Below the pieces are notes generated by a model. It saw nothing but the letters and a program-made list of their open reading frames with translations, was not told the origin of the DNA and ran no database searches. Below are positions 5,149-37,932 of a DNA stretch of 64,000 bases, in pieces. The DNA is taken from positions 248,001 to 312,000 of the forward strand of contig CANLTE010000001.1 of the NCBI GenBank assembly GCA_947493885.1. The letters are read 5' to 3'. Source of the stretch: an uncultured Maribacter sp. Lineage in GTDB: Bacteria > Bacteroidota > Bacteroidia > Flavobacteriales > Flavobacteriaceae. Numbering within the stretch: the stretch's first letter is position 1; each line of letters starts with the position of its first letter. The translations under genes were made by a program, and so were the position numbers.

Positions 5149-5184
5149 CTTATTGGAATTATGAATGTATAATTTGTTATGTTT

Positions 5185-11346: not shown

Positions 11347-13977
11347 ATGAAAACGAACAAAGTCTTAAATTTAATCTGTATGCTGAGCTTTTTGCTAAGT
11401 TCAGCAGTGGTTTTTGCCCAAAGTACAATAACGGGTAAAGTAACTGATGAAAATAGTACACCTGTTCTAGGAGCAACTGTACAAGTTAGAAACTCATCAA
11501 ACGGAACAGTAACAGATATTGATGGTATGTATACCATTAGCGCCTCTGAAGGTCAAATTCTTCTTTTCTCATACATTGGCTACGAAGATGTACTTAGAAA
11601 AGTAGGAGCTAACAAAATTGTGAATATCCAAATGAATCCTACCTTCAGCGAGCTAAATGAAGTAGTTGTTTCGTCAACAAGAAAACCAGTAAGAAAACTA
11701 CAATCCACTTCGGCAATTAACAGTATAGGATTAGCTGAATTGGAAATTAAACAACCAGAATCTTTTACTGAAGCTATTGAAAACACTCCTGGTGTAACAG
11801 TTGATAATTCTTCTGGTAGAAAAGGTACTTTTAGAATTAGAGGGTTCCCTGGAGGAAATGTTTACACAACAACTTTAATAGATGGTCTACCAGTTTCTGG
11901 TATTTCTAACCTTTCAGCGGGTACTCAAGAGTTTTATGGAATTGATCCTAATGTGGAAAGAATTGAAGTTGTTAGAGGCGCTGCAGCGACCCTATTTGGT
12001 AGAGCTGCTGGTGCTGGTGCAATAAATATTATATCAAGAACTGGTGGAAAGGAACATGCTGGAGCTTTCACTTTTACAAAATACAATAATGTATCTGGTG
12101 ATGGGCATCAATTTGATGGCGATGTAGATTACAGAGCAGACTGGAACTTAAATGGCCCAGTTTCTGAAAAACTCCGTTACAACATTGGAGGATATGTAAT
12201 TAATGACTCTGGAAACAAAGAACAAGCTAATAAAGACCTTGGTGCCCAGTTTCGTTTTAATTTTGACTGGTTAATTTCAGAAAACTCGTCAATTAGATTC
12301 TACGGTGGATACTTGCACAATCAATTTCAGAATGTAACCGACGCTGCATATGATTTAAGCACCAATGAAATTGCAGATGGTTTTAGTACATACAACACTA
12401 TTTACAGCGATGCTAGTCAACTAGAGAATCCTAATGCCTATGCAGCTGCTGGTGGAGAACCTGTTTTAGATGTTAACGGACGACGCATAACAAACAACCC
12501 TGCAGACAATAGGGAAGAAGTAAAAGGTGGTAATCTTGGAATTGATGCGTTATTTGATTTAGGAAGTGGATGGTCTATAAATGAAAAAATTAAATATCAA
12601 GACATGGACTTTGATGATATTAATGAAATTGGATTAACTGGTTTCTTTACAGCAGAAAGTTCAATTTTAAGATTTCAATCAGGTGCTAAAAACCAAAACA
12701 AATCTATTATTTCTGAAACCAGAATTTCTAAACTAATAGACGGAGAAAAGGCTGATCATAATATAAGTTTTGGACTTTATTATTCAAAAGCTGAACGTGA
12801 TCGTTTAGGGTTAAACTATTTATATCGTTCTACTGTTAGCCCAAGACCAAGTTTCTTTGGAGGCTTTTTTGGACCTCCTTCCCCTCTTGGAGAAACCTTT
12901 TCAATTTCTGGAACTACGTCACATAGAGAAGAAAAAAGTACGGCCTTGTTTATAGGAGATGAAATGATATTTAATGAAAAACTAATTATTAATGTTGCCT
13001 TAAGATATGATTGGTTAACGGGTTCTTTCTCCAATAACCCAGAAGAGATTCGCAGTATAAATGTAGATTACGACCCAGCTGAAACTATTGTTAATGAGTT
13101 AAAGTTTAATGACTTTTCTGGATCTGTTGGAGTAAACTACTTAATTGGTGAAAATTCAGCAATCTATGGAAACTTCCTAAGAGCATTCTCGCTTCCTTCT
13201 GTAACAAATGTTAATCAAGAAGCGCCTGAAGAAAATGAGGTTATAAATAATTTGGAAATAGGATACAGAGCTGGTTTGGGAGATTTAACTTTAGATGCTA
13301 CCTTTTTCAGTACAAGAATTAACAATAGAGTTTCTAGTGTTTTTGATGCCGATTTAAGTGAGTTTGTTTTGAGACCAGCTGGTTCAAACAAAATACTTGG
13401 TGGAGAAATAGCACTAACTTATGCTCCAAAGGGAATTAAAGGTTTTTTATTCAGAGGTAGTTATACACGTCAAAACTCTGAGTATGTAGATTTTGTTGTT
13501 CCGTTAAGCACAAACCGCGCTGGTGAGATTAATGCAGATTTAAATAATCTTTTTGGACTAAGTGCTGTTAATAATAATACTGCCATAGACGTTGGTGGTC
13601 TGCAAGTGCAAGAAACACCTAAAAATATTTTCAACTTCAATATTAGTTACAATAGAAGTAGATGGGGTGCAGATTTTGGAGGGTTTTCATATACTGATAT
13701 GTACGGTGATATTTTTAACCTATATGATAAACCAAACATCTCTATATACAACCTAGGTGGTTACATTACTTTCCCACTAGGTATTAACGAACTAAAAGTT
13801 AGCATGCGAGTTAAAAATATTTTTGACGGAGCAAGTCCACAAGATTTATTTGTATCAAGTGGTGATGATAGTGTTCTACTTGAAAAGCAAAACAATCCGG
13901 ATCCGACAGGAAGGTTAGCTTGGTCTACTTTCCAGAACCCAAAAAGAGTTTTATTTACATTGGGTTACAAATTTTAA
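11347..13977 (+). CDS. TonB-dependent outer-membrane receptor
   Basis: The 876-residue protein has a signal peptide (1-25), a carboxypeptidase-regulatory-like domain (about 27-95; ITGKVTDENSTPVLGATV), a TonB-box-like EVVVSS (about 105), a plug domain (about 118-230; TFRIRGFPGG, VERIEVVRGAAATLFG, GAGAINIISRTG) and a 22-strand-type barrel ending LFTLGYKF. It drives energy-dependent import across the outer membrane. There is no SusD gene beside it, which favours a small molecule such as a siderophore-, heme- or bilin-like ligand over a glycan. It is a single-gene unit with its own operator and a strong terminator. The substrate is presumably the compound degraded by the island. Confidence 0.92.
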   Translation: MKTNKVLNLICMLSFLLSSAVVFAQSTITGKVTDENSTPVLGATVQVRNSSNGTVTDIDGMYTISASEGQILLFSYIGYEDVLRKVGANKIVNIQMNPTFSELNEVVVSSTRKPVRKLQSTSAINSIGLAELEIKQPESFTEAIENTPGVTVDNSSGRKGTFRIRGFPGGNVYTTTLIDGLPVSGISNLSAGTQEFYGIDPNVERIEVVRGAAATLFGRAAGAGAINIISRTGGKEHAGAFTFTKYNNVSGDGHQFDGDVDYRADWNLNGPVSEKLRYNIGGYVINDSGNKEQANKDLGAQFRFNFDWLISENSSIRFYGGYLHNQFQNVTDAAYDLSTNEIADGFSTYNTIYSDASQLENPNAYAAAGGEPVLDVNGRRITNNPADNREEVKGGNLGIDALFDLGSGWSINEKIKYQDMDFDDINEIGLTGFFTAESSILRFQSGAKNQNKSIISETRISKLIDGEKADHNISFGLYYSKAERDRLGLNYLYRSTVSPRPSFFGGFFGPPSPLGETFSISGTTSHREEKSTALFIGDEMIFNEKLIINVALRYDWLTGSFSNNPEEIRSINVDYDPAETIVNELKFNDFSGSVGVNYLIGENSAIYGNFLRAFSLPSVTNVNQEAPEENEVINNLEIGYRAGLGDLTLDATFFSTRINNRVSSVFDADLSEFVLRPAGSNKILGGEIALTYAPKGIKGFLFRGSYTRQNSEYVDFVVPLSTNRAGEINADLNNLFGLSAVNNNTAIDVGGLQVQETPKNIFNFNISYNRSRWGADFGGFSYTDMYGDIFNLYDKPNISIYNLGGYITFPLGINELKVSMRVKNIFDGASPQDLFVSSGDDSVLLEKQNNPDPTGRLAWSTFQNPKRVLFTLGYKF

Positions 13978-14137: not shown

Positions 14138-15556
14138 CTACTCTATATTCTTTTCCTCAAAATCCATCATTGTATCGGGGTGTGCAGATTGTATTAACAA
14201 AGCCTTCTTTCTAAAAAAACGTAAAAATCCAGCATCACCCATTCTCGAACCATTAATTCCAGACTCCTTAAAAGAATTTTTCTCAGCGTCATATACTTTA
14301 TTTGTTAGGCTTCCATCATTAATACTAACTGCGCCAACTTCTATTTTTGCAGCAATTTGTATTGCTCTATCTCTATTAGTAGAAAAAACAGAGGCCGATA
14401 AGCCGTAGATGCTATCATTAGCCAACTTTAAAGCCTCTTCTTCGGTCGTAAATGCCATAATAGGAATAATGGGTCCAAAAGTTTCTTCGGTCATTACTTT
14501 CATTTTATGATTAACGTTTACTAACACCGTTGGCTCACACCAAAGTCCGCCTTCAATTTCTTGAACCTTTCCTCCAGTAAGTATTTTCGCCCCCTTTGAA
14601 ACAGCATCATCAATCTGTTCCTGAATTTTCTGCGCTTGTCCTTCAAAAATTAACGGCCCCATTTGCCCTTTTTTAGGATTCACGGTCATAGTTACTTTAC
14701 TTGCTTTTGCGGTTATCTCCTGTACAAAATCATCGTAAATAACCTTATCTACGTAAATTCGTTCTAGAGATTGACAAGCCTGCCCAGTAGCTCCAACACA
14801 ACTTCGTAAAATAGCATCAGTTGAAACTTCTAAATCAGCATCTTTTAAAACTATTGCAGGATCTTTTCCTCCAAGTTCTAAAAAGGCCGGAATAAAACGT
14901 TCTGCACATGCAGCTCCAATTTTTTTACCCGTAGGAACACTTCCTGTAAAACAAATAGCATCAGTATTTTGAACAACCGCCTTACCAGCTTCAGCACCAC
15001 CACGAACCAATTTTAAGACTTTTACTAGTTCTGGAACGGCTTGAATACTTTTTTCCAATCCATCCATAAAGCGAGGGGTTACTTCACTAGGTTTTAGGAG
15101 TACTCCACAGCCTGCCATCAATGCAGGAACTGTATCAATTAAAGCCAATAATAAAGGGAAATTCCATGGGCTTATTACACCAACCACAGCGTAAGGTATC
15201 CACTGTTGCTGCACCGTCACTGTATTTGCAGACATCGACGGACGTTCAACTGGGGGTACTAATAATTGTGGGGCACGATAGCACCATGATTGCACCAGAC
15301 CCAACGCTCCACCAACTTCAACATCAGATATTTTTTTTCTAGCTGTATCAATATTTAATTGTTCTGCAATTTCTGATTGATACTCCTTTAAACTTTCTAA
15401 CCAAAGTTGTATAACCTCAGCACGTTTTATTACACCTTGCTCATTCCACGCTTTCTGGGCATCACGAATTTCCAATGTTTTATTTGCGACACTCTCTAAG
15501 GTATCCTCATGTAATTCATAATCGTATTTTCCTGTCCTAGGGTTTCTTATTTTCAT
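14138..15556 (-). CDS. NAD(P)-dependent aldehyde dehydrogenase
   Basis: At 472 residues it has the usual family length. The catalytic Glu227 lies in LELGGKDPA and the nucleophile Cys261 in GATGQACQSLERIYV; the cofactor region has PWNFPLLLA and FTGSVPTGKKIG. It oxidises an aldehyde to an acid in the cytoplasm. It forms a one-gene unit whose promoter carries a perfect operator only 15 bases before the start codon, so it belongs to the island regulon. The likely substrate is an aldehyde released early in the pathway, but nothing in the sequence identifies it. Confidence 0.9.
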   Translation of the reverse strand: MKIRNPRTGKYDYELHEDTLESVANKTLEIRDAQKAWNEQGVIKRAEVIQLWLESLKEYQSEIAEQLNIDTARKKISDVEVGGALGLVQSWCYRAPQLLVPPVERPSMSANTVTVQQQWIPYAVVGVISPWNFPLLLALIDTVPALMAGCGVLLKPSEVTPRFMDGLEKSIQAVPELVKVLKLVRGGAEAGKAVVQNTDAICFTGSVPTGKKIGAACAERFIPAFLELGGKDPAIVLKDADLEVSTDAILRSCVGATGQACQSLERIYVDKVIYDDFVQEITAKASKVTMTVNPKKGQMGPLIFEGQAQKIQEQIDDAVSKGAKILTGGKVQEIEGGLWCEPTVLVNVNHKMKVMTEETFGPIIPIMAFTTEEEALKLANDSIYGLSASVFSTNRDRAIQIAAKIEVGAVSINDGSLTNKVYDAEKNSFKESGINGSRMGDAGFLRFFRKKALLIQSAHPDTMMDFEEKNIE

Positions 15557-15691: not shown

Positions 15692-15724
15692 ATAAAATTA
15701 GTTAACTTAGTTAACTAATTTTAT
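15692..15724. promoter_or_regulatory. predicted MarR operator, 11-gene catabolic operon
   Basis: The core is TAGTTAA-CTTAG-TTAACTA (15699-15717). The arms are perfect over 14 bp (15692-15705 and 15711-15724). It overlaps the -33 position of the promoter whose -7 box is at 15727-15734. Confidence 0.88.
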
Positions 15725-15738: not shown

Positions 15739-16650
15739 ATGAGTACAAAACACATTGTTTTAGAAGAACAGGGCTTAAGAGATGGGTTTCAAACCTTACC
15801 AATTACCATTTCAACTCAAAAAAAGCTCAATTATATTAAACTCTTGGAAGCAGCTGGTATAAAGCGTATTCAAGTGGCTTCGTTTGTACATCCAAAATTA
15901 GTTCCACAAATGGCAGATGCCGAAGAACTTTGCAGCAAGTTGGAAAAAAAAACAGATGTAATATACAGTGGCTTAGTACTAAACCTAAAAGGTGTTGAAC
16001 GTGGCATTAAAGCAGGCTTAAATCATTTAGCATGTTCTATATCTGCTAGTAATACACATAGTCAAAAAAATGCAAGGTTAACCCTTGTTGAAGCCAAAAA
16101 CGCTTTTCAGGAAATGGTTAAACATTCCAAAGAACATGGTATTATCGTTCGCGGAGGTATTCAATGTGCTTTTGGATGCCGATATGAGGGAAAAATAGAT
16201 GAAAATCACGTTTTAGATATGGTAGACCATCATCTAGATACTGGAGTGGATGAATTAGCCTTAGCTGACTCTACAGGGATGGGAAACCCAAAACAGTTAG
16301 GAGCATTAATGTATAAAGTCGTAGAAAAAGCAAAAAATATCCCCGTAGTGCTCCATCTACATAATACAGAAAACAAAGGTTACGCAAATTTGTATGCTGC
16401 TATTGAGGCTGGTGTTACCATTTTTGATACCGCTTTTGGTGGCTTGGGGGGGTGCCCTTTTATAAAAAGTGCAACTGGAAACATTGCAACCGAAGATAGT
16501 GCTCATATGATTCATCAAATGGGTTATGAAACAGGATTAAACATTAGCAAAATTGCAGAAATAAGTAGAGAATTGGAAGCCACCTTAGGTTATAAATTAC
16601 CAGGGCAATTGTACCAATTAATTGACAATAATGAAATTAAAATGATTTGA
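15739..16650 (+). CDS. HMG-CoA-lyase-family acyl-CoA lyase (predicted alkylmalyl-CoA lyase)
   Basis: The 303-residue TIM-barrel protein has the HMG-CoA lyase signature set: LRDGFQ (Arg14, Asp15), ALADSTGMGNP (174-184), metal ligands HLHN (His206, His208), GGLGGCPF with Cys239, and Asn248 in ATGNIATED. Family members cleave 3-hydroxy-3-alkyl acyl-CoAs by a retro-Claisen reaction. It is the first gene of an operon with a LeuCD-like hydratase and a CoA-transferase, and no leucine-catabolism genes are present, so the substrate is more likely a citramalyl- or dimethylmalyl-type CoA. Cleavage would give a 2-oxoacid plus an acyl-CoA. Family call firm, substrate inferred. Confidence 0.88.
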   Translation: MSTKHIVLEEQGLRDGFQTLPITISTQKKLNYIKLLEAAGIKRIQVASFVHPKLVPQMADAEELCSKLEKKTDVIYSGLVLNLKGVERGIKAGLNHLACSISASNTHSQKNARLTLVEAKNAFQEMVKHSKEHGIIVRGGIQCAFGCRYEGKIDENHVLDMVDHHLDTGVDELALADSTGMGNPKQLGALMYKVVEKAKNIPVVLHLHNTENKGYANLYAAIEAGVTIFDTAFGGLGGCPFIKSATGNIATEDSAHMIHQMGYETGLNISKIAEISRELEATLGYKLPGQLYQLIDNNEIKMI

Positions 16651-17885
16651 TGGGACAGACAATTTCAGAAAAAATAATATCCAACCATGTTGGACATAAA
16701 GTATATGCGGGAGAACTTGTAATAAGTGACGTTGATGGCGCAATGGCTAGTGATACCACAGGGCCATTAACCATAAAAGCCTTCAAAGAAATGGGAGGAA
16801 AAAAAGTTTTTAATCCTGATAAATGTGCTTTAATTATTGATCACGCAGCTCCTTCACCAAACGAACGCATTGCCAACTTACATAAAATGATGCGAGATTT
16901 TGCCAAAGAACAAGGCATGCGCCTCTTTGAAATAGGTGAAGGAATTTGTCATCAAGTAATGGTTGAAAATCAATATGTAAAGCCGGGAGATATCTTTATT
17001 GGAGCAGATTCGCACACACCAACATATGGAGCCTTAAATGCTTTTGCTTGCGGTGTAGGTTCTACTGATTTGGCTGCGGTAATGATGACTGGTAAAATAT
17101 GGTTAAAAGTACCTCAAACTATAAAAATTCATTGCTCAGGTAAGCTACAAGACGGTGTTACTGCTAAAGATTTAATCTTATTTCTGGTGGGTAAAGTAAC
17201 AGTTTCTGGTGCAACATATCAAGCCATTGAATTTTGTGGAGAAGCATTTGAGGGCTTAAGTTTAGCTAGTAGAATGACCATTGCCAATATGTCCTCTGAA
17301 ATGGGAGCAAAAACAGGAATTGTTCATCCCGCAGGTTTAGCATTGGATTATGACTTTGAAGCCATAACTCCTGATGCAGATGCCAAATACATTAAAACTT
17401 TTGACTTTGATGTATCAAACTTAGAGCCGCAGGTGAGTGCTCCAGAGTCACCTGATAATGTACACAACATTTCCAACTATGAAGACACTAAAATTAACTA
17501 TGCCTTTATTGGAACTTGCTGTAATGGAAGGCTTGAAGATTTAGATGTTGCTGCTAAAATTTTAAAAGGAAAAAAAATACACCCAGATGTTAGAATGGTG
17601 ATTGCTCCAGCATCACAAAGCGTTCTATTAGATGCTATGAGCAATGGTTCTATGCAAACGCTAATTAAAGCTGGCGCTTCATTAATAACATCAGGCTGCG
17701 GGCCATGTGTAGGTACGCATCAAGGTGTGCCTGCTGACGGCGAAGTTGTCATCTCAGCTGCAAACCGAAATTTTAGAGGTAGAATGGGTAATCCCAACTC
17801 CAACATTTATTTAGGAGCCCCTTCAACAGTGGCTGCATCTGCCTTAGAAGGGAAAATTACAAATCCAAAAAAATACTTAATATGA
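16647..17885 (+). CDS. LeuC-like hydratase large subunit (aconitase superfamily)
   Basis: At 412 residues this is the short, archaeal-type LeuC/HacA/DmdA form. The [4Fe-4S] ligands are in GTCCNGR (Cys291 or Cys292) and SGCGPCVG (Cys351, Cys354). IGADSHTPTYGALNAFACG (118-136) and the closing GNPNSNIYLGAPSTVAASAL are typical. The usual CTNGR reads CCNGR here. It overlaps the HMG-CoA-lyase-like gene by 4 bases and the small-subunit gene by 4 bases. No leuA or leuB is nearby, so leucine synthesis is unlikely. Dimethylmaleate hydratase (DmdAB) of nicotinate fermenters is a known catabolic relative, and hydration of an alkylated maleate would suit this operon. Confidence 0.85.
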   Translation: MMGQTISEKIISNHVGHKVYAGELVISDVDGAMASDTTGPLTIKAFKEMGGKKVFNPDKCALIIDHAAPSPNERIANLHKMMRDFAKEQGMRLFEIGEGICHQVMVENQYVKPGDIFIGADSHTPTYGALNAFACGVGSTDLAAVMMTGKIWLKVPQTIKIHCSGKLQDGVTAKDLILFLVGKVTVSGATYQAIEFCGEAFEGLSLASRMTIANMSSEMGAKTGIVHPAGLALDYDFEAITPDADAKYIKTFDFDVSNLEPQVSAPESPDNVHNISNYEDTKINYAFIGTCCNGRLEDLDVAAKILKGKKIHPDVRMVIAPASQSVLLDAMSNGSMQTLIKAGASLITSGCGPCVGTHQGVPADGEVVISAANRNFRGRMGNPNSNIYLGAPSTVAASALEGKITNPKKYLI

Positions 17886-18391
17886 GCACTATAAAAACAA
17901 CTATAGAGGCAAAGGCACATGTATATGGTAATCATATTGATACTGACCGTATTATACCAGGGAAATATACTAAAACATTAGATTTATCTACATTGGCAAA
18001 TCATGTTTTGGAGGATTTGGACCCCAATTTCCATAAAATAGTACAATCCGGAGATATCCTTGTCGCAGGTATAAATTTTGGTTGTGGTTCCTCACGTGAA
18101 CAAGCTCCATTAGCCTTAAAACAATCTGGAATATCTGTAGTAATTGCAGAAGATTTTGCACGTATTTTTTTTAGAAACGCCATTAATATTGGGTTACCTG
18201 TTTTAGAAATTGGTAAGCATAATATTCAAAAAGGGGCTAAACTTTCTATCGACTTAAAACAAGGCATTGTTAACGATATAACAGCTAACACATCATACAA
18301 GGCAACGAAACTACCGGATATTATGATTGATATTTTAAAGGAAGGCGGGTTAGTTAATTACTTGAATAAAAACGGAAATTATACTTTATAA
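17882..18391 (+). CDS. LeuD-like hydratase small subunit
   Basis: The 169-residue swivelling domain partners the preceding LeuC-like protein. It has GNHIDTDRIIPGKYTKT (16-32), the FGCGSSREQAP loop (about 66-76) and FFRNAINIGLP. In archaeal-type isopropylmalate and homoaconitate enzymes the residues after IIPxx read YLRT or YLV-type and set substrate choice; here they are Y29-T30-K31-T32, which fits neither and suggests another substrate. It is translationally coupled to the large subunit (4-base overlap). The function follows that of the large subunit: reversible hydration of a maleate-type diacid. Confidence 0.85.
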   Translation: MSTIKTTIEAKAHVYGNHIDTDRIIPGKYTKTLDLSTLANHVLEDLDPNFHKIVQSGDILVAGINFGCGSSREQAPLALKQSGISVVIAEDFARIFFRNAINIGLPVLEIGKHNIQKGAKLSIDLKQGIVNDITANTSYKATKLPDIMIDILKEGGLVNYLNKNGNYTL

Positions 18392-18399
18392 AATGTATT

Positions 18400-18960
18400 A
18401 TGAGCAGAGTAAATCCCATACAGAATCCAAAAGAAAGTCAACTAGGCACCCTATTCTCTAATGCAGAAAAGTGGATGGGTTTTTTACCCAATGACGGACT
18501 TATTATGGCTCATAAGCCAGAAGTTCTAAAAGCATTTTTTCAATTAGCAAAAACGATATACGCCGAGGGTAAAATAAATGCAGGACTTAAAAGAATGTTG
18601 GGCCATCTTTCCAGTAAGGTAAGCGGGTGTCAATACTGTAGTGCACATACCGCATACGGTGCAAATGAACAAGGCGTTGAAAAAGATAAATTGGAACAAC
18701 TTTGGGAATATAAAACTTCATCTCTTTTTTCCGACGCTGAAAAAGCAGCATTAGAAATTGCATTAAAAGGCAGCATGGTTCCTAACCAAGTTGCAGATGA
18801 AGATTTTATCGAATTAAAAAAGTACTATGATGATGAAGCTATTGTAGAAATTATTGGAGTTATTTCCATGTTTGGTTTTTTAAACAGATGGAATGCCACA
18901 TTAAATACACAAATAGAAAATGCACCAGAAACTTTTTATAAATCTCTAAATTCAAAATAA
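18400..18960 (+). CDS. AhpD/carboxymuconolactone-decarboxylase-fold protein
   Basis: The 186-residue all-helical protein has the AhpD-type active-site motif CQYCSAHTAYGA (Cys77, Cys80, His83). It fits the peroxidase-like branch, where a redox-active CxxC and His relay protons. Such proteins either reduce hydroperoxides or protect enzymes from them. Its place between the LeuD-like and CoA-transferase genes (8-base and 1-base gaps) suggests it either guards the Fe-S hydratase from oxidation or handles a peroxide formed by an oxygenase step. I cannot tell which. Confidence 0.8.
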   Translation: MSRVNPIQNPKESQLGTLFSNAEKWMGFLPNDGLIMAHKPEVLKAFFQLAKTIYAEGKINAGLKRMLGHLSSKVSGCQYCSAHTAYGANEQGVEKDKLEQLWEYKTSSLFSDAEKAALEIALKGSMVPNQVADEDFIELKKYYDDEAIVEIIGVISMFGFLNRWNATLNTQIENAPETFYKSLNSK

Positions 18961-18961
18961 A

Positions 18962-20140
18962 ATGAGTGCTCCTTTAAAAGGTATTAAAGTATTAGAATTT
19001 ACACATGCAGTAATGGGGCCATGTGCCGGACTTATGTTGGCCGATATGGGTGCAGATGTAGTTCATGTGGAGCCAGTTCATGGTGATAGTACACGTAAAT
19101 TACAAGGCTTTGGAACGGGTTACTTTTGGTTTTATAACCGAAACAAAAGAAGCCTTGCCATTAATATAAAATCTGAGGAAGGTCGCAATCTAATTTATGA
19201 GTTGGTTAAAGATTATGACGTGGTTGTAGAAAATTTTGGCCCAGGAACTATGGATCGACTAGGATTAGGGTACGATACCTTAAAATCACTGAACAAAGGC
19301 CTCATCTATTGTTCTCTCAAAGGTTTTTTAAGTGGACCTTATGAGAAACGACATGCAATGGATGAGGTTGTTCAGATGATGGGCGGATTAGCTTATATGA
19401 CTGGTCGAGAAGGTGATCCGTTACGTGCAGGAACGTCAGTGATTGATATTACTGGAGGAATGTTTGGGTATATTGGTATTTTACAAGCATTGTATGAGCG
19501 TGAAAAAACTGGAGAAGGTGGTTTCGTAAAATCAGCTTTATTTGAAACATGCGCATTTTTAATGGGACAACATATGGCGTATTCCTCGCAAATAGATTAC
19601 AAAATTCCACCCATGCCATCACGAGTAAGCGCATGGTCTATATATAAAGTTTTTGATACCAAGGATAACGATAAAACATTTATTGGTATCATAAGCGAAA
19701 AGCATTGGGAACGCTTTTGCGAAGTTTTTGGTTGGCAAGATTGGTTAACAAATGAGCGATTAAAAACAAACAATCTTCGTATTGATGAGCGTAAATGGTT
19801 TTTACCTGCTCTTGAGGAACGCATTAAACAATACACAAAACAGGAAATTATAGAACGATGCGAAAAAGGTCATATTCCCTTTGCCCCAATCAGTAGACCT
19901 GAAGACCTTTTTGAAGATGAACAACTTAACAAAGGAAATAGTTTAATGGAAGTTAATATGGGAGGTGGTAAAACAACAAAACTACCAAAATTTCCCATTG
20001 AATATAAGGGCACGAGAGTTGAAAAACGATTAGATCCCCCAAGGATTGGTGAACACACTTTAGAGGTTTTAAAAGAACTAAATATTGATGCGGATACAAT
20101 TGCCAAAATGAAAGCTGCTGGAATCATTAAAACAGAATAA
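18962..20140 (+). CDS. family III (CaiB/BaiF) CoA-transferase
   Basis: The 392-residue protein starts GIKVLEFTHAVMGPCAGLMLADMGADVVHVE, the standard N-terminus of family III CoA-transferases. The catalytic Asp162 lies in GTSVIDITGG. Such enzymes move CoA from a donor such as succinyl-CoA to a carboxylic acid, with an aspartyl-CoA anhydride intermediate. In this operon the acceptor would be the alkylmalate made by the hydratase, giving the CoA ester cleaved by the lyase. Succinyl-CoA made by the PCC/MCM route under the same operator could act as donor. This is a separate paralogue from the one at 62823-63980. Confidence 0.88.
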   Translation: MSAPLKGIKVLEFTHAVMGPCAGLMLADMGADVVHVEPVHGDSTRKLQGFGTGYFWFYNRNKRSLAINIKSEEGRNLIYELVKDYDVVVENFGPGTMDRLGLGYDTLKSLNKGLIYCSLKGFLSGPYEKRHAMDEVVQMMGGLAYMTGREGDPLRAGTSVIDITGGMFGYIGILQALYEREKTGEGGFVKSALFETCAFLMGQHMAYSSQIDYKIPPMPSRVSAWSIYKVFDTKDNDKTFIGIISEKHWERFCEVFGWQDWLTNERLKTNNLRIDERKWFLPALEERIKQYTKQEIIERCEKGHIPFAPISRPEDLFEDEQLNKGNSLMEVNMGGGKTTKLPKFPIEYKGTRVEKRLDPPRIGEHTLEVLKELNIDADTIAKMKAAGIIKTE

Positions 20141-20144
20141 ATCT

Positions 20145-20579
20145 ATGAAACTGGTAGTTTTTGTATGTACTTTATTTATCGCTATAACTGGTGTCTCTCA
20201 AGATATAAGCACTTCTGAGAGAGAACAAATACTACATCAGATTACAAACCTCAAAACCGCGCACCTTAATAGCGATACTGTTTTGGCGAATAAAATATAC
20301 CATGACAATCTTATTCTTACTTCTCAAAGTGGAAAAAGATATCATAAGAAAGAAGCTATTGCTAACATAAAAAATACGTTTGAAAGTTACGAAAGCACAG
20401 ATATTCATTTTTTAAAGATTGATACTAATGTGATTCTAACAAATTACATGAACAAACGAAAATTTAAAGGGTTTGATGAAGGGGAATATAGACTTACGGT
20501 AGTATGGAAAAAACAGGAAGACAATTGGATTATCATTTCTATGCAATCTTCTAAAATCAAAAAAAGAACAAAAAAATAA
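20145..20579 (+). CDS. exported NTF2/SnoaL-like protein
   Basis: The 144-residue protein has a signal peptide (1-19, cleavage near GVSQD). The rest fits the NTF2-like/DUF4440 cone fold: an N-terminal helix (REQILHQITNLKTAHLNSD), then HDNLILTSQSGKRYHKKEAI and a final VVWKKQEDNWIIISMQ strand pair. These are usually ligand-binding or small isomerase/dehydratase folds. It sits mid-operon, 4 bases after the CoA-transferase. A periplasmic role with the pathway substrate is plausible; the activity is unknown. Confidence 0.65.
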   Translation: MKLVVFVCTLFIAITGVSQDISTSEREQILHQITNLKTAHLNSDTVLANKIYHDNLILTSQSGKRYHKKEAIANIKNTFESYESTDIHFLKIDTNVILTNYMNKRKFKGFDEGEYRLTVVWKKQEDNWIIISMQSSKIKKRTKK

Positions 20580-20614
20580 AAATTGCTTTTACATAAATAT
20601 TTAAAAAAACTACT

Positions 20615-21277
20615 ATGCAGACCACAGATAAAACAGCTAAAGAACTTTATTTTGAAGTAAAAGCTAACCCAGCACGTAAACGCTTTGGGTTTGGTAAAAA
20701 AGCTGCTTTAATCAATATAGATATTCAAAAAGCATATACCAGAACTGATCTTTTTAAAACAGCTTACCAAAACGACCCCAAACAGTTAGATTATGTAAAC
20801 GAATTAGCTGCAAAATTCAGGAAGTTAGGCTGGCCAGTTGTTTGGACTAATGTGGCATATATGGACACAGCAGCTGATGCTGGCGTTTGGGGCACTCGTA
20901 CAGATACGCCGGATAGTTTACAAAATATTAAATTTGGTTCGGAACGTGCTGAATTAGATGACCGGCTTATACTTGACCGTTCCTCTGACGTTTTTTACGA
21001 AAAAAAGATGCCTTCGCCTTTTTTTGAAACCCCTTTGCAATCCCTTTTAGTATGGCATCAAATAGACACTGTAATACTAACTGGAGGGTCTACATCTGGC
21101 TGCATCAGAGCTGCAGGAGTTGATTCTCTTTCTCGTGGTTATAGAACTATAATACCTGAAGAATGTGTTGCTGACAAACATGAAAGTTACCACTATGCAA
21201 ATCTTACCGATTTATCTTTAAAATATTGCGACGTACTAGAAGTACAAGAAATTTTTACATGGTTAAATAATTTATAA
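20615..21277 (+). CDS. isochorismatase-family amidohydrolase (N-carbamoylsarcosine amidase / maleamate amidase type)
   Basis: The 220-residue protein has the cysteine-hydrolase triad: Asp36 (NIDIQKAY), Lys130 or Lys131 (YEKKMPSPFF) and Cys163 in TGGSTSGCIRAAGVDSLSRG, a motif very close to N-carbamoylsarcosine amidase and maleamate amidase NicF. It would hydrolyse a carboxamide to a carboxylate and ammonia. It precedes two PuuE-type ring-opening hydrolases by 2 bases. The pairing matches imide to half-amide to diacid chemistry, so a substituted maleamate is the favoured substrate. Creatinine or hydantoin routes use the same family, but their other genes are absent. Confidence 0.85.
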   Translation: MQTTDKTAKELYFEVKANPARKRFGFGKKAALINIDIQKAYTRTDLFKTAYQNDPKQLDYVNELAAKFRKLGWPVVWTNVAYMDTAADAGVWGTRTDTPDSLQNIKFGSERAELDDRLILDRSSDVFYEKKMPSPFFETPLQSLLVWHQIDTVILTGGSTSGCIRAAGVDSLSRGYRTIIPEECVADKHESYHYANLTDLSLKYCDVLEVQEIFTWLNNL

Positions 21278-21279
21278 CA

Positions 21280-22230
21280 ATGAAAGAAGATCCAGGATAT
21301 TACGATTATTGGCCTTACGAAAATCGACCAAAAATTAAATGGCCTAATGGGGCTAAAGTTGCCTTTTGGGTGGCTCCAAATATTGAATTTTACGAGCTAA
21401 ATCCCCCTAATAATCCTTTTAGAAAACCATGGCCTCAACCAAACCCAGCATTACCTGGTTATACAAGTAGAGACTGGGGTAATAGAGTAGGTCATAAAAG
21501 GCAAATGGATCTTTTAGAAAAATATGGTATTCGTGGATCAATATCATTATCCACAGCACTATGTGACCATCATCCTGAAATTATAGCACTATGTAAAGAA
21601 CGTAATTGGGAGTTTTTTAGTCACGGTATTTACAATACAAGATATACTTACGGAATGTCTGAATCTCAAGAGCGAGACATGATTAAAGACTCCATCGAAA
21701 CTATTTATAAACATACGGGGCAAAAATGTGCGGGTTACCTAGCCCCTGCGCTATCTCACTCCGAAAACACTTTAGATTTATTTGCTGAAGTTGGTACTGA
21801 GTTATTTGGAGAAGAAGCAGGTTTTTATTCCTGTGATTTATTTCATGATGATCAACCTACTCCAATTCATTTAAGAAGCGGAAAACGTTTTGCATCTATA
21901 CCCTACTCCTTAGAAATGAATGATACCATTGCCTATCTGGTGCAAAAAATAACGCCACGTAGATATGGTCAAGAGCTCAAAGACAATTTTGACCGCTTAT
22001 ATGCAGAAGGCGCTGAAAGTGGAACCATCATGTGCATACCAACTCATAATTATCAAGTAGCAAATTCGCACAGAATAAAAGCTTACGAAGAAGCTTTAGA
22101 ATACATTACTGGGCACTCCGATGTATGGGTTGCAACAGGCAAAGAAATAGCTACTTATTATTTAGATAATTATTACGATGCTTCAATAACAGATATTAAC
22201 AACAAAAAGAATCGTTATGGGATTAGATAA
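21280..22230 (+). CDS. PuuE-type polysaccharide-deacetylase-fold hydrolase, copy 1
   Basis: The 316-residue NodB-fold protein is of the PuuE group, marked by SRDWGNRVGHKR (near 63) where chitin deacetylases differ, followed by the metal-site region SHGIYNTRYTYG and THNYQVANSHRIKAYEEAL near the C-terminus. It has no signal peptide, so it works in the cytoplasm and not on cell-wall glycans. PuuE allantoinase and cyclic-imide hydrolases belong to this group and open C-N bonds of five-membered rings. It overlaps the next gene, a paralogue, by 14 bases. No urate or allantoin genes are present. A cyclic imide substrate is inferred. Confidence 0.82.
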   Translation: MKEDPGYYDYWPYENRPKIKWPNGAKVAFWVAPNIEFYELNPPNNPFRKPWPQPNPALPGYTSRDWGNRVGHKRQMDLLEKYGIRGSISLSTALCDHHPEIIALCKERNWEFFSHGIYNTRYTYGMSESQERDMIKDSIETIYKHTGQKCAGYLAPALSHSENTLDLFAEVGTELFGEEAGFYSCDLFHDDQPTPIHLRSGKRFASIPYSLEMNDTIAYLVQKITPRRYGQELKDNFDRLYAEGAESGTIMCIPTHNYQVANSHRIKAYEEALEYITGHSDVWVATGKEIATYYLDNYYDASITDINNKKNRYGIR

Positions 22231-23137
22231 ATCATATTTAGACTATCCAGAGCGTTCATATGGCATGGATCATCAACGCTACGATTGGAACATGTTGCAC
22301 GAAAGAAAAAAAATACAATGGCCCAACAATAAAAAAATAGCTTTATGGGTGAATGTTGGTGTTCAATTTTTTCCACTAAATCAACAGGGAATTCCGTTTA
22401 AAGTTCCTGGCGGAATGACTAAGCCTTACCCAGATTTACGACATTACAGTCTACGAGATTACGGTAATAGAGTAGGTATTTATCGTTTTTTTAAAGCTCT
22501 TGACAAATACAAGGTAACACCTACCTTTGCGATGAATACTAGGTTAGCAGAACGCATACCTTATCTCACCGAAACCATTAAAGAAAGAGGAAACGAGATT
22601 CTTTGTCATGGTTACCATATGGATAAATTACATTATGGAGGGCAAAATATTGATGAAGAAAAAGAGCTAGTAAAACAGGCAGTTGATGGTTTGCGTGAAC
22701 TTACGGGACAAGCCATTACTGGCTGGATAAGCCCTGCAAAAAACGAATCTGAAAACACTCCAGATATACTAGCCCAAAATGGTATCAATTATTTTTGCGA
22801 CTGGGTTAATGATGAAATGCCTTATAATTTTAAAACAAAAAATGGTATCTTGACGGCAATGCCTTTAACTACAGAATTAGACGATCAGTTTATAATATTA
22901 AACAATTTGCATTCGGCTGAAGCTTGGGCAAATCAGGTAGAAGATGCATTTCAATACTTGTTAAAAGAAGCAACTTCGCAAGGAGGAAGAATATTAAGTT
23001 TAAATATTCATCCATGGGTATTGGGGCAACCGCATAGAATTAAGTATTTGGAATATATTCTGGACATATTAGGTAGCCATGAAGCTGTATGGTCCGCTTC
23101 TGCAACAGAAATTTTAAAAGCTTGGAAAAACAGTTAA
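22217..23137 (+). CDS. PuuE-type polysaccharide-deacetylase-fold hydrolase, copy 2
   Basis: The 306-residue paralogue of the preceding protein keeps SLRDYGNRVGIYRFF (75-89), EILCHGYHMDKLHYGG and the PuuE-like C-terminal LNIHPWVLGQPHRIKYLEY. It is clearly diverged from copy 1, which reads THNYQVANSHRI at that place, so the two probably handle different ring substituents or form a heteromeric enzyme. It is cytoplasmic, as there is no signal peptide. It is coupled to copy 1 by a 14-base overlap and followed by the transporter gene after 10 bases. Confidence 0.82.
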   Translation: MGLDKSYLDYPERSYGMDHQRYDWNMLHERKKIQWPNNKKIALWVNVGVQFFPLNQQGIPFKVPGGMTKPYPDLRHYSLRDYGNRVGIYRFFKALDKYKVTPTFAMNTRLAERIPYLTETIKERGNEILCHGYHMDKLHYGGQNIDEEKELVKQAVDGLRELTGQAITGWISPAKNESENTPDILAQNGINYFCDWVNDEMPYNFKTKNGILTAMPLTTELDDQFIILNNLHSAEAWANQVEDAFQYLLKEATSQGGRILSLNIHPWVLGQPHRIKYLEYILDILGSHEAVWSASATEILKAWKNS

Positions 23138-23147
23138 ACTTTTGTAG

Positions 23148-24032
23148 ATGACGGCACAATTTTTAGCATACATTCCTGTCATATTACAAATTATTCTGTT
23201 TCTAGTAATGCTGGGCATGGGATTAACACTCACCGTAACCGATTTTAAACGTGTTGGTGTTGCTCCTAAAGCAATTTTTATTGGATTATTTAATCAAATA
23301 GTTCTGGTTCCTATAATAGCTTTTACCATTGTTGCAGTAGTACCTATGAAGCCAATGGTAGCTATGGGGTTAATGATTGTAGCTTGTTGCCCTGGGGGAG
23401 CGGTTTCTAATCTTTTTTCTCATTTAGCAAAAGGAGACACCGCCTTATCTATAAGCCTAACAGCCATATCTAGTTTAGTGACCATTTTTACGATTCCATT
23501 TATATTAAACTTTTCGCTAGACGCTATTTTGGGAGCTGCATCAAAAAACATACAACTTCCTATTGGAGCTACAGTTCTTAATATCTTTAAATTAACTGCA
23601 TTGCCCGTTCTTATTGGTATGTTTATAAAACATAAATATCCTAATTTTTCTGAAAAAAGTAAGCCCGCAATTTCATGGGGTTCTGGTATTGTTATTGTCT
23701 TAGCATTAGTACTTATGATTATGAAACTTGAAGAAATTGGTAGCAGCTGGTTTTTTATTAAAGCTTCATTTTTAGGAGTACTTTTACTTAATATTACAAC
23801 GCTTTCCGTAGGTTATTTTAGCGCAAAAGCGCTAAAGACATCTACAAAACAGGCAGCAACAATTGCTATAGAAAGTGGAATGCAAAACAACGTATTGGGA
23901 ATGACTATTGCGCTTTCGGCTGGATTATTGAATGAACCAAAAATGGCAGCTACTGCCGGTGTTTATGGGGTTGTAATGTGTATTATTGCTATCGGCGTGA
24001 TTTTTCTGTTCAAAAAATTAATTAATAAGTAA
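23148..24032 (+). CDS. bile acid:sodium symporter (BASS) family transporter
   Basis: The 294-residue inner-membrane protein has about nine or ten hydrophobic segments from the N-terminus on. Family marks are LGMGLTLTVTDFKRV (about 20-35), VACCPGGAVSNLFSHLAKGD (the Na+-site crossover) and ESGMQNNVLGMTIALS. BASS carriers bring organic anions in with sodium (bile acids, pyruvate, pantoate and other carboxylates). Within this operon it is the likely inner-membrane importer of the pathway substrate or an acidic intermediate, complementing the TonB receptor. It is co-transcribed with its neighbours (10-base and 1-base gaps). Confidence 0.87.
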   Translation: MTAQFLAYIPVILQIILFLVMLGMGLTLTVTDFKRVGVAPKAIFIGLFNQIVLVPIIAFTIVAVVPMKPMVAMGLMIVACCPGGAVSNLFSHLAKGDTALSISLTAISSLVTIFTIPFILNFSLDAILGAASKNIQLPIGATVLNIFKLTALPVLIGMFIKHKYPNFSEKSKPAISWGSGIVIVLALVLMIMKLEEIGSSWFFIKASFLGVLLLNITTLSVGYFSAKALKTSTKQAATIAIESGMQNNVLGMTIALSAGLLNEPKMAATAGVYGVVMCIIAIGVIFLFKKLINK

Positions 24033-24033
24033 A

Positions 24034-24807
24034 ATGAACTTACATCTAGATAATAAGCTCTTTTTGGTTGGTGGAGCAACAAGTGGATTAGGAAGAGCAA
24101 TTACAGAGCAGTTAATAGCGGAAAATGCAAGAGTTATTGCCGTAGCCCGTACACAAGAAAAACTAAAAGAATTGCAGCAAATAAGTGATAAAATAGAAAT
24201 TTTTGCTGGGGATTTATCAGATGAGAATACGTTATCTAGTTTAATTAAAATCATTGGTGACAATGTATTAACTGGTGCTGTAGTTAATTCTGGAGGGCCT
24301 CCAGCAATGGCTGCTATGAATACAAAACTGTCTGATTGGGATACTGCTTATAAAACCGTAGTTAGATGGAAAATTGCATTAACTCAGGCATTATTACCCA
24401 AAATGATTGACCAACAATATGGTCGTTTGTTATATATAGAAAGTGTTTCCGTAAAACAGCCCGTAGAAAATTTAGTACTTAGTAATGCCATGCGATTAGC
24501 AGTTGTTGGTTATGTAAAAACGCTTTCGCAAGAAATTGGATCATCGGGAGTTACCTTAAATATCTTAGGTCCAGGATTTCATGCTACACAGCGCATGGAA
24601 AATTTGTTTAAAAAGAATAGCGAACTAAAAGGAGTTCCTGAATCGGAGATTAGAGCCACATTTGCAGAACAAACCGTGATGAATAAAATTGGAAAACCCG
24701 AAGGTTTTGCTTCGTTAGCACTATGGCTACTATCTTCACACAGTAGTTATATTTCTGGGCAAACAATTTCGGTAGATGGTGGTTTGGTGAAAGGCACAAT
24801 GGGTTAA
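24034..24807 (+). CDS. short-chain dehydrogenase/reductase with non-canonical active site
   Basis: The 257-residue Rossmann protein has GGATSGLG (13-20) and a C-terminal SGQTISVDGGLVKG as in FabG-like SDRs. The catalytic YxxxK is replaced: the segment reads LSNAMRLAVVGYVKTLS (149-165), with Ser150/Arg154 at the Tyr/Lys positions. This SNxxR form occurs in a recognised subgroup of SDRs, so it is unlikely to be a sequencing error; its chemistry is unclear. It is the last gene of the operon, ending 8 bases from the convergent SDR gene. Confidence 0.8.
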   Translation: MNLHLDNKLFLVGGATSGLGRAITEQLIAENARVIAVARTQEKLKELQQISDKIEIFAGDLSDENTLSSLIKIIGDNVLTGAVVNSGGPPAMAAMNTKLSDWDTAYKTVVRWKIALTQALLPKMIDQQYGRLLYIESVSVKQPVENLVLSNAMRLAVVGYVKTLSQEIGSSGVTLNILGPGFHATQRMENLFKKNSELKGVPESEIRATFAEQTVMNKIGKPEGFASLALWLLSSHSSYISGQTISVDGGLVKGTMG

Positions 24808-28527: not shown

Positions 28528-29643
28528 ATGCAATACAAAAAAAACATTGTTTTAATCGTGATTAGCACTATGCTAACCTTTAGCTTACAATCACAAACAC
28601 TGCCAGATACTGGTATAAGTGGTCTGTACGAGGTTATGCTAGGAGTCGAAGACCCCGCCTATGCAAAAAAATACTTTGCGGATTTTGGTTTTAGTGTAGT
28701 TGATAGTGCCACTATCACCGGCGTAGATGCCAAAAAAATATACGGAGTAAATTCTAAACTTACTTCGTATAGATTGCAAAATGGAGATATTGATAGTCAT
28801 GGCTTACTACGTATTTTAGCTTGGGAAAAACCTTTGGGTGAGGGTATTGGTTATGCTCCTGTGGAAACTATTGGAACCAGAATTGCAGTAATGCGAACCA
28901 ACAATATCTACAGGTTATTTGATATTTATCAAAAAGCTAGGTTGCTTGGTAAAAAACCTTGGTTACCAACAGAGCCAATTTCTGATGATATTTTTGGTTT
29001 GAACAAAGGAGAAAGAGACTTTTTTAATCGGCCCGTTCTTGTTCGCGAGAATGCCATTTACGGAAAATTTTTTAACCATATTTTCTTTCAACGTTACGGA
29101 TATCATATACCTGGATATGGCACTATAAAAAATGACACCCCTTTAAAAACAAGTGAATTTACGCACCATGATTTTATAATTAACGCATCCTCAATGGAGG
29201 CTATGAGTTACCTGTCTAGCGCGCTAGGACTAAAAGCCGAAAGCAAACCAGTTGTTGACGGAGATTGGCTTAAAGGACCCAAACGTGTTTTTCAAATGGA
29301 GCCGGGTTATAGCCACTGGTACCAAGGCTTTGTTTCTCCAAACAACATTTGCGGAAAATTGAAATTTTTTATCCCAAGAGGAGATAAAACAAATAAATCT
29401 GAACACCAACGAATAGGAGAAAAAGGAATCACCCTTCATTCATTTTATACGCCAAAACTTAAAATGGTACACAAACTAGTAACAGAACATAAATTAAACC
29501 CCACTGCTATTCAAAAAAACGAGTTTAATGAAAACTCATTTGTATTTACTGATACCGCAGGTGTTAGTTGGCAAATAATAGGAAAAAATACGCCCTCAAC
29601 TAATACTCCAATAACAAAATTAGAATTTAAACTAGTGGATTAA
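28528..29643 (+). CDS. exported VOC-family protein (paralogue of 8904-9932)
   Basis: The 371-residue protein has a signal peptide (1-23, LTFSLQSQ) followed by repeated VOC modules. It shares with the cytoplasmic VOC protein LYEVMLGVEDPAYAKKYF at the N-terminus, FFNRPVLVRE (165-174) and FTHHDFI (211-217). Two copies in different compartments within one regulon suggest the same chemical group is handled in the periplasm and the cytoplasm, or two steps on related compounds. It could be a metal-dependent dioxygenase, isomerase or binding protein. It is second gene after the double-bond reductase. Confidence 0.75.
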   Translation: MQYKKNIVLIVISTMLTFSLQSQTLPDTGISGLYEVMLGVEDPAYAKKYFADFGFSVVDSATITGVDAKKIYGVNSKLTSYRLQNGDIDSHGLLRILAWEKPLGEGIGYAPVETIGTRIAVMRTNNIYRLFDIYQKARLLGKKPWLPTEPISDDIFGLNKGERDFFNRPVLVRENAIYGKFFNHIFFQRYGYHIPGYGTIKNDTPLKTSEFTHHDFIINASSMEAMSYLSSALGLKAESKPVVDGDWLKGPKRVFQMEPGYSHWYQGFVSPNNICGKLKFFIPRGDKTNKSEHQRIGEKGITLHSFYTPKLKMVHKLVTEHKLNPTAIQKNEFNENSFVFTDTAGVSWQIIGKNTPSTNTPITKLEFKLVD

Positions 29644-30813: not shown

Positions 30814-31332
30814 ATGATTGATAAAAGTATAGAGGAATCTATTGTATTAAGCATTTTTGATTTATCAAATCAGCTTAAGAAAATAGGAGATGATGTGTAT
30901 CTAAAGGTAGGCTTAACCACGCAACAATGGCTTATTTTATTGCACTTATCTGGAAACCCAAATCTACCTTTCTTTAAAAGAGAAAAACACGTTAAAGATT
31001 TAATGGCCAGCGAATTAGCAGAATCATTAAATGTTTCAAGAGCAAACATAACAAATCTTATTAACGTTCTTTTAGACAAAAAATTAATAAAGCAATTTGA
31101 GGACGGACAGGACCGAAGAAAAAAACGTCTACGCTTAACTAAAAAGGGAATGGCTTTAATTGATAAAACACAACCATCTCGTCTTGGAGTAATTCATTTT
31201 TTAACCGAAGGATTTTCTAAAGAAGAGAAGGAAACTTTCCTTCAGTTTTTAGAACAATGCATGAATAAGCTAATCAATGAGGATGAAAAGATTAAATCAT
31301 TCCATAAGTTATTTGATGAAAGTAAGGTTTAG
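30814..31332 (+). CDS. MarR-family regulator, predicted master regulator of the island
   Basis: The 172-residue protein has MarR architecture: an N-terminal dimerisation helix (1-30), a winged helix-turn-helix (about 65-125; LAESLNVSRANITNLINVLLDK is the recognition region, wing DGQDRRKKRLRLT) and C-terminal dimer helices. MarR dimers bind palindromes of about 20 bp and are released by phenolic or acyl-CoA ligands. It is the only local regulator in the 35-kb island in which eight similar palindromes occur. Its stop is 10 bases from the convergent mutase operon. Ligand unknown; a pathway intermediate is the natural guess. Confidence 0.9.
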   Translation: MIDKSIEESIVLSIFDLSNQLKKIGDDVYLKVGLTTQQWLILLHLSGNPNLPFFKREKHVKDLMASELAESLNVSRANITNLINVLLDKKLIKQFEDGQDRRKKRLRLTKKGMALIDKTQPSRLGVIHFLTEGFSKEEKETFLQFLEQCMNKLINEDEKIKSFHKLFDESKV

Positions 31333-34865: not shown

Positions 34866-34880
34866 AACGTTCCTCTTTAG

Positions 34881-36422: not shown

Positions 36423-36452
36423 TGTATACTTTTTGACTGTTATTACAACAAC

Positions 36453-37925: not shown

Positions 37926-37932
37926 TTTGTTG

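Follow-up and report, generated by a model that had tools for sequence, protein, structure and literature searches.

We analysed a window of 64,000 nucleotides (C1:248001-312000 of a 3.84-Mb Maribacter genome) and found in it an operon of eleven open reading frames (ORFs) on the plus strand (15739-24807; no gap longer than 36 bases, and three short overlaps) that, on balance, probably encodes a lower pathway for dialkylmaleimides derived from oxidised open-chain tetrapyrroles (phycobilins, products of chlorophyll or heme), hematinic acid being a main substrate and methyl-ethyl- or methyl-vinyl-maleimide probable further ones. The reactions, the substrate and the regulator are predicted from sequence. 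The imide ring would be opened by one or both of two PuuE-fold hydrolases (PuuE-A and PuuE-B), the half-amide would lose ammonia through an isochorismatase-type cysteine hydrolase, and the maleate would be hydrated to an alkylmalate by a LeuCD-type enzyme; a family III CoA-transferase (CaiB) would then load CoA, and an HMG-CoA-lyase-type enzyme (HMGL) would split the product into a 2-oxoacid and an acyl-CoA. Hematinic acid would thereby give pyruvate and glutaryl-CoA or, with the other regiochemistry of hydration, 2-oxoglutarate and propionyl-CoA; propionyl-CoA and pyruvate are still expected among the products. These would be taken on by a second pyruvate dehydrogenase (PDH), by propionyl-CoA carboxylase and methylmalonyl-CoA mutase (PCC/MCM) and by a glutaryl-CoA dehydrogenase (GCDH) encoded elsewhere in the genome. 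In some Proteobacteria, an enzyme of the PrpB/dimethylmalate lyase (DML) type would replace the CoA-dependent split and release free glutarate or propionate.

The operon and its enzyme classes had been named in a first-pass annotation of this DNA, and the Pfam and NCBIfam families of the eleven ORFs agree with it, four members (the CMD, DUF4440, SBF and SDR proteins described below) having been left unnamed there. The proposed alkylmalyl-CoA lyase, HMGL (15739-16650; PF00682, 8e-41), passed the cut-off of the NF004283 subfamily (286.8 bits; cut-off, 246), and its best match in the PDB was 6nds (1.2e-66), with the RDG, H-x-H, and GGLGGCP stretches aligned. The proposed alkylmaleate hydratase consists of a LeuC-type large subunit (aconitase/LeuC family, 16647-17885; TIGR02086, 541.5 bits; cut-off, 410.15) and a LeuD-type small subunit (17882-18391; TIGR02087, 198 bits; cut-off, 108.95), both thus above the cut-offs of broad subfamilies (IPMI_arch and LeuD/DmdB-family, respectively). 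The pair fell under the cut-off of every isopropylmalate isomerase or homoaconitase equivalog that it matched (LEU2, HacA, leuC), with bits and cut-offs of 467.3 and 610.65 for TIGR02083, 197 and 245.85 for TIGR02084, 463.9 and 550 for NF040615, and 195.6 and 230 for NF040625. CaiB, the proposed activator of the alkylmalate (18962-20140; PF02515, 1.6e-107, 360.2 bits; cut-off, 23.3), matched seven NCBIfam models, none at its cut-off, and was closest in the PDB to 9br6, a succinate-hydroxymethylglutarate CoA-transferase (1.5e-59). The three remaining catalytic members, hereafter the triad, are the isochorismatase-type hydrolase, proposed to act on a half-amide of the maleamate type (20615-21277; PF00857, 2.3e-28), and the two proposed cyclic-imide hydrolases, both of the polysaccharide-deacetylase/PuuE-like family, PuuE-A (21280-22230; PDB 3cl6, PuuE, 5.4e-21) and PuuE-B (22217-23137; PDB 3s6o, 6.5e-25).

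We then determined how far the triad is conserved. An alignment scan of named genomes with PuuE-A gave 94 stretches that matched the pattern and 66 confirmed loci, namely 21 in Flavobacteriaceae, 4 in Saprospiraceae, and 41 titled Proteobacteria (among them Paraglaciecola, Thalassotalea, Alteromonas, Halomonas, Rheinheimera, SAR92, and Betaproteobacteria). PuuE-A is present in every locus by construction of the search, which does not hold for the other two genes: the isochorismatase-type hydrolase was found in 65 and PuuE-B in all 66, so that the triad was complete in 45/45 loci outside Flavobacteriaceae and in 20/21 within, the exception (L045) lying on a contig that starts at PuuE-A. Outside Flavobacteriaceae, identity was 61 to 83% for the isochorismatase-type hydrolase and 50 to 72% for PuuE-B. 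Cysteine hydrolases of the isochorismatase type use a catalytic Asp-Lys-Cys set, and D36, K130, and C163 were identical in at least 65 of the 66 aligned sequences. Because of this constant co-occurrence, the cysteine hydrolase and both PuuE proteins seem to form a functional unit, in keeping with a ring opening that precedes the hydrolysis of a half-amide. The cysteine hydrolase had been called maleamate-amidase-like; its family assignment holds, but N-carbamoylsarcosine amidohydrolase (1.4e-27) is a closer match than 3ot4 (7.6e-19), which we take to be the maleamate amidase NicF, so NicF is not its closest characterised relative.

In eight loci (L064, L070, L103, L106, L107, L110, L112, and L116) there is a third PuuE-like protein, 26 to 31% identical; in Paraglaciecola relatives it lies near an SDR, an acyl-CoA dehydrogenase (ACAD)-type or 391-residue protein, and CaiB homologues. 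Another conserved protein, of 243 residues and with no Pfam match (L071:3883-4614 and 13 further loci), often stands beside a methyltransferase near the triad; its model is poor (mean pLDDT, 52.6) and gave a weak match to a DUF1849 beta-barrel (5.8e-6).

The strongest support for the order of steps comes from the neighbourhood of the triad in the 45 loci outside Flavobacteriaceae. A homologue of LeuC or LeuD was found in 20 of them, a lyase of the PEP-mutase/isocitrate lyase family in 9, a GCDH in 11, a CaiB homologue in 14, and an HMGL homologue in 5, with at least one of LeuCD, the lyase, and GCDH in 26. LeuCD also occurred in seven of the nine loci carrying the PrpB/DML-type lyase, and in L077 and L089 the three genes, for LeuC, LeuD, and the lyase, follow one another next to the triad (in L077, one enoyl-CoA-hydratase-type gene lies between). 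Among solved structures the lyase of L089 was nearest to methylisocitrate lyase (1.1e-57) and also matched 2,3-dimethylmalate lyase (8e-49); the three of the nine lyases scored against the PrpB model TIGR02317 (cut-off, 354.4) remained under it, with 290.0 (L089), 296.3 (L077), and 268.5 bits (L062). We propose that CaiB and HMGL of the Bacteroidota stand in for this proteobacterial lyase. Since two unrelated solutions for cleavage accompany the same triad and type of hydratase, the predicted sequence from imide through maleamate, maleate, and alkylmalate to a 2-oxoacid and an acyl-CoA, which the first-pass annotation had already put forward, is well supported. In three loci (L079, L080, and L085) a compact module has a TRAP transporter, a GntR regulator, and the PrpB/DML-type lyase directly before the triad, with LeuCD in L080 and L085; it seems to serve only for scavenging the imide or the diacid.

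The substrate preferred in the first-pass annotation fared differently: dimethylmaleimide, chosen on the ground that propionyl-CoA genes share the operator described below, now seems less likely, and hematinic acid, which was on the list of compounds for growth tests, is favoured by the GCDH genes near the triad (11/45 loci) and by the CpeT genes of the island, which together argue for maleimides derived from tetrapyrroles. For two of the eleven GCDHs (L097, 3.4e-188; L068, 1.3e-184), solved GCDHs were the closest structures over the full length, and the other nine were assigned by 51 to 98% identity to that of L097; the count leaves out two ACAD proteins (L064 and L070) that are 28% identical to it and retains that of L093 (51%). 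The relatives' GCDHs reached 193 to 208 bits and thus not the NCBIfam GlutCoADH_Des cut-off of 470. The gene adjoins the triad and is divergent from it in L068, L069, L074, L075, and L077, and in L088, L091, and L097 it lies upstream with the same orientation. The expectation of glutaryl-CoA from hematinic acid, whose hydrated acid would be split into pyruvate and glutarate, a diacid of five carbons, preceded the structure comparison; it was unrecorded, and the ACAD family was already known at the time.

The link to tetrapyrroles comes from the surrounding island, which spans about C1:212000-286500 (window positions 1-38500 and further left). All four of the genome's genes over the PF06206 cut-off lie at C1:216827-248739, predicted to encode CpeT-family proteins, one of them within the window (CpeT/CpcT family, 77-784, plus strand; 1.5e-27, 97.1 bits; cut-off, 21). 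CpeT proteins belong to a bilin-lyase family and act on open-chain tetrapyrroles in cyanobacteria. Among 394 other genomes of a sample of the order, CpeT was found in eight, one copy each and none with the triad, while five members of the genus with the triad have three or four CpeT genes each and three without it have none. We also searched for CpeT in 44 genomes, 41 of them with the triad (those of 36 of the 66 loci and nine further genomes, minus L074), and found it in 16/16 Flavobacteriaceae and 14/25 other triad genomes. In the family of Paraglaciecola chathamensis it was present in 14/22 triad genomes versus 8/174 others (Fisher P of 8e-11, relatedness ignored; the samples for triad and CpeT, 196 genomes each, were assumed to be one set); one genome (G461) had a CpeT match (9.1e-6) in the triad-genome search that was absent among the matches of the family sample. 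The distance between CpeT and triad in the 14 Paraglaciecola-family genomes was less than 40 kb in nine and 101 kb in one, and in four the two were on different contigs. Hematinic acid and methyl-ethyl- and methyl-vinyl-maleimide stand in the scheme of oxidative tetrapyrrole products in the excerpted part of PMC7318184, where hematinic acid was found in plant samples.

Several observations weigh against this assignment. The same plant samples that contained hematinic acid yielded no maleimides, according to that excerpt (PMC7318184). In 19 of the 45 loci outside Flavobacteriaceae, some of them on short contigs, the compared stretch shows no LeuCD, GCDH, or lyase, and CpeT was absent from 11 of the 41 triad genomes searched, including that of Betaproteobacterium UKL13-2. 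The Maribacter GCDH homologue (52% identity) lies outside the island, at C2:49182, so that for Maribacter the link is indirect. A match to the heme oxygenase family was absent from the Maribacter genome, while the control gave matches in 3 of 14 named genomes; the scan of the island proteins likewise brought up no enzyme known to open chlorophyll. The lack of a heme oxygenase would be consistent with pigments being consumed in open-chain form. Furthermore, the sampled genomes are related, and counts of loci or genomes are not counts of independent events. Finally, four of the eleven loci with GCDH (L069, L074, L075, and L093) have no LeuCD in the compared stretch, which leaves room for a different imide, as discussed below.

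The alternative that stands up best keeps the order of enzymes and makes the natural substrate a simple alkylmaleimide, citraconimide or dimethylmaleimide, not one derived from tetrapyrroles. LeuCD beside PrpB/DML-type lyases recalls the dimethylmaleate end of nicotinate fermentation, and the PCC/MCM genes under the operator described below fit propionyl-CoA; however, GCDH near the triad and the CpeT genes are left unexplained, and we know of no abundant natural source of dimethylmaleimide, so we consider this unlikely. Less probable is that the triad hydrolyses another imide (for example glutarimide or a succinimide) and yields glutarate or succinate directly, with LeuCD and the lyases belonging to unrelated neighbouring pathways. 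The four GCDH loci without LeuCD would be explained in this way, but LeuCD homologues of differing kinds are found repeatedly close to the triad (20 of the 45 loci outside Flavobacteriaceae), and LeuCD is in one operon with the triad in Flavobacteriaceae and in the Saprospiraceae locus L055. We hold it for very unlikely that the operon serves acyl-CoA metabolism of the leucine, itaconate, or citramalate type and has an imide hydrolase beside it only by chance, even though HMGL exceeds an HMG-CoA lyase subfamily cut-off and CaiB is nearest, among solved structures, to succinate-hydroxymethylglutarate CoA-transferase: the genes for HMGL, LeuC, LeuD, CMD, and CaiB stand before the triad in an unchanged order in 19/21 Flavobacteriaceae loci (the contigs of the two others, L036 and L045, start within the operon) and likewise in L055. 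The least probable alternative, nitrogen salvage from ureides or pyrimidines, in which allantoinases of the PuuE type and a hydrolase of carbamoyl amides would be transcribed together with an organic-acid pathway, draws on the nearest named families (allantoinase PuuE and N-carbamoylsarcosine amidohydrolase) and on an amidohydrolase-superfamily gene (L099:3077-4555) and hydantoinase A/B genes in the island, and is contradicted by the scores of PuuE-A (102.1 bits) and PuuE-B (119.0 bits), far under the PuuE allantoinase cut-off of 424.6 (TIGR03212), and by the gene context, as the scan of the island proteins brought up no gene for urate, allantoate, or ureidoglycolate, the rest of the genome not having been searched for them.

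The proposed breakdown of tetrapyrrole-derived maleimides resembles known systems in its parts. In the nicotinate fermentation of Eubacterium barkeri, the LeuCD-type DmdAB hydrates a dialkylmaleate and 2,3-dimethylmalate lyase forms pyruvate and a short acid. The likeness lies in a LeuCD-type hydratase followed by C-C cleavage, with PrpB-superfamily lyases accompanying LeuCD in seven relatives, whereas here imide-ring hydrolases stand in front, a CoA-dependent cleavage by CaiB and HMGL is proposed for the Bacteroidota, and no nicotinate genes were recognised among the scanned island proteins. As with NicF of the aerobic nicotinate pathway, an enzyme of the isochorismatase fold is proposed to free ammonia from a maleamate, but its sequence is nearer to N-carbamoylsarcosine amidohydrolase, and hydration takes the place of maleate isomerase. 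In the 3-hydroxypropionate bicycle, (R)-citramalate is converted to pyruvate and an acyl-CoA by a family III CoA-transferase and an HMGL-type (R)-citramalyl-CoA lyase. The same two enzyme types would act here on the CoA ester of a 2-hydroxy-2-methyl acid, but they are accompanied by LeuCD and imide hydrolases, and the side chains are probably larger. Some bacterial imidases are said to share the PuuE fold; in contrast to PuuE and these imidases, two distinct PuuE-like proteins stand side by side here, both under the PuuE cut-off. PuuE itself is described, in the excerpt of PMC9863593, as a metal-independent cyclic amide hydrolase first annotated as a polysaccharide deacetylase.

Oxidative breakdown of chlorophyll and heme gives the proposed substrates, but the excerpt of PMC7318184 covers their formation, not their use by bacteria; it puts the chlorophyll made and degraded at 10^12 kg a year. 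In excerpts of the open-licence literature on hematinic acid, on bilin and phycobilin catabolism, and on bacterial chlorophyll degradation we found no bacterial gene set for finishing tetrapyrrole ring fragments, and that on cyclic imide hydrolases and dimethylmaleate added nothing useful. If the assignment is right, the triad would serve as marker genes for the final steps in the mineralisation of tetrapyrroles, and the fate of the ring fragments could be tested with named culturable strains.

The specificity of LeuD-family proteins is set by a substrate-recognition region of the small subunit, according to the excerpt of PMC7308503. At this loop, the window protein and the aligned copies from 19 Flavobacteriaceae and 2 Saprospiraceae read PGKYTKT, and seven proteobacterial copies (L068, L071, L077, L088, L089, L091, and L097) have Y-M-K. 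Homoaconitase has at this position an Arg that holds the extra carboxylate. A Lys there would suit a tricarboxylate, but this is a weak hint only, since ordinary LeuD is also basic at this place; nine other neighbouring LeuD proteins are longer and ordinary-looking, with M-K or M-R at about the loop position.

A shared operator had been claimed for the operon, the PCC/MCM genes, and PDH. A 16-base motif, AGTTAACNTAGTTAAC / AGTTAACTTAGTTAAC, occurs without mismatch in the promoter region that separates the operon from a divergently read aldehyde dehydrogenase (ALDH) gene (15700-15715, plus strand) and before the PCC/MCM operon (38503-38518, plus strand), so that the claim holds for these two, while the site near PDH (7925) has three mismatches and is weak. 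A third perfect copy of AGTTAACNTAGTTAAC precedes the hydantoinase B/methyltransferase genes (L023:9219), and these three places, all inside the island, are the only ones in the genome. With one mismatch allowed, two more places were found, one in the island (C1:231490) and one outside (C1:146031); a control pattern read backward gave two matches. At up to three mismatches the window has 19 matches versus 4.17 expected, and 0 of 100 shuffles had as many, several sites being counted on both strands because the motif is nearly self-complementary. L023 likewise has 6 matches versus 1.13 expected (0 of 200 shuffles had as many), while in L099 an excess is unclear (4 matches; 12 of 200 shuffles had as many). 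Imperfect copies precede the genes for ALDH, TonB/DUF1838, an alcohol dehydrogenase, and a nitrilase. The site upstream of the operon is identical in L039, from another genus, which alone tests its conservation, since the aligned stretches of L032 and L034 lay inside a gene. The palindrome scan by itself revealed no operator; a 12-mer, TTAGTTAACTAA, was rejected as operator (13 matches versus 11.0 expected), and the 16-mer direct-repeat form stood out instead. A MarR-type protein (30814-31332, plus strand; PF12802, 5.6e-10), present in 13/21 Flavobacteriaceae loci, is a candidate for the regulator that reads the operator.

The island also carries genes that could take on the products, and both sets named earlier, PDH and PCC/MCM, were confirmed by Pfam. 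The second PDH (minus strand, 3529-7860) comprises an E2 (3529-5148) and an AceE-type E1 (5185-7860), the latter being the genome's only PF17831 match, with E1_dh-type genes elsewhere; this extra enzyme fits pyruvate as a product. The PCC/MCM operon (minus strand, 31343-38412) encodes the two mutase subunits, a carboxyltransferase, a biotin carboxylase, and a biotin carrier, for conversion of propionyl-CoA to succinyl-CoA, and would suit the regiochemistry that gives 2-oxoglutarate and propionyl-CoA. As a tentative extension, which we regard as a serious possibility though somewhat doubtful, the whole island may serve the complete aerobic uptake and mineralisation of phycobilins or chlorophyll-derived bilins in algae-associated Bacteroidota, with a variant in Proteobacteria: CpeT-like and other beta-barrel proteins would bind the open-chain tetrapyrrole, VOC-type and flavin enzymes would cleave it into maleimides, from which the triad, LeuCD, and the interchangeable lyases would produce pyruvate, propionyl-CoA, and glutaryl-CoA. 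Families common to the Maribacter island and to some or all of seven regions of the Paraglaciecola group are VOC-type proteins, amine-oxidase-type flavoproteins, DUF1838, DUF3598, and a methyltransferase; an SDR is common to the island and six of the seven (55 to 57% identity), and one region (G462) has homologues of the operon's CaiB (64%), HMGL (37%), and CMD (50%). The island is patchy, as PuuE-B matched in 9 of 99 genomes searched (its own included) and in a close form in 6, and a close PuuE-A was found only in its own genome among 395 of the order. The gene order of the left half of the window is mostly kept in the stretches compared from two genus-mates (G001 and G004), and in a member of another genus (G033) it is kept with more gains and losses.

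The other members of the operon are a CMD (carboxymuconolactone-decarboxylase/AhpD-like) protein (18400-18960; PF02627, 2.1e-8; 19/21 Flavobacteriaceae loci), a DUF4440 protein with, by eye, a likely N-terminal signal (20145-20579; PF14534, 3.5e-10), an SBF/BASS-type transporter proposed to take up an organic acid or the imide (23148-24032; PF01758, 4.1e-38), and a short-chain dehydrogenase/reductase (SDR) (24034-24807; PF13561, 1.6e-31; 14/21 Flavobacteriaceae loci). The transporter is present in 21/21 Flavobacteriaceae loci versus 0/45 others. The divergent ALDH (14138-15556, minus strand; PF00171, 5.1e-106) is found in 19/21 Flavobacteriaceae loci.

Elsewhere in the window's part of the island are a TonB-dependent receptor (11347-13977, plus strand; PF00593, 9.5e-32), a carbon-nitrogen (nitrilase-type) hydrolase (29746-30759, plus strand; PF00795, 3.2e-25), a VOC/glyoxalase-superfamily protein (8904-9932, minus strand; PF00903, 3e-4), and a VOC-superfamily paralogue of the latter (28528-29643, plus strand; 29% identity, no Pfam match), the model of which is poor (mean pLDDT, 50.0) and weakly matches two-module VOC folds (best, 2.9e-9). 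Eight VOC proteins were counted in the island, these two and those at L099:10129, 12315, 14861, and 15851 and L023:562 and 2500; four of the eight have homologues near the triad in Paraglaciecola relatives. An alpha/beta hydrolase at 8004-8842 is split into two overlapping ORFs and is a single ORF in G001 and G033, so that it is either a broken gene or an assembly error. To the left of the window the island also encodes three further DUF1838 proteins, a cytochrome c, an amidohydrolase, a formylglycine-generating-enzyme (FGE)-like protein, hydantoinase A/B, and a second LeuCD together with an HpaI-type aldolase. A cluster at L023:7577-16666 (C1:235577-244666) holds the second LeuCD, the HpaI-type aldolase, hydantoinases A and B, a FAD_binding_2 protein, and an SDR, and is perhaps a parallel branch for another ring. 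FGE-like proteins (L099:17608-18552 and L029:9996-10940) occur in the island of both genera and have no obvious role there. At the right edge of the window, an ALDH (60573-62030) and a protein 28% identical to the operon's CaiB (62823-63980), which has a paralogue at L024:1-1128, make another acyl-CoA cluster possible.

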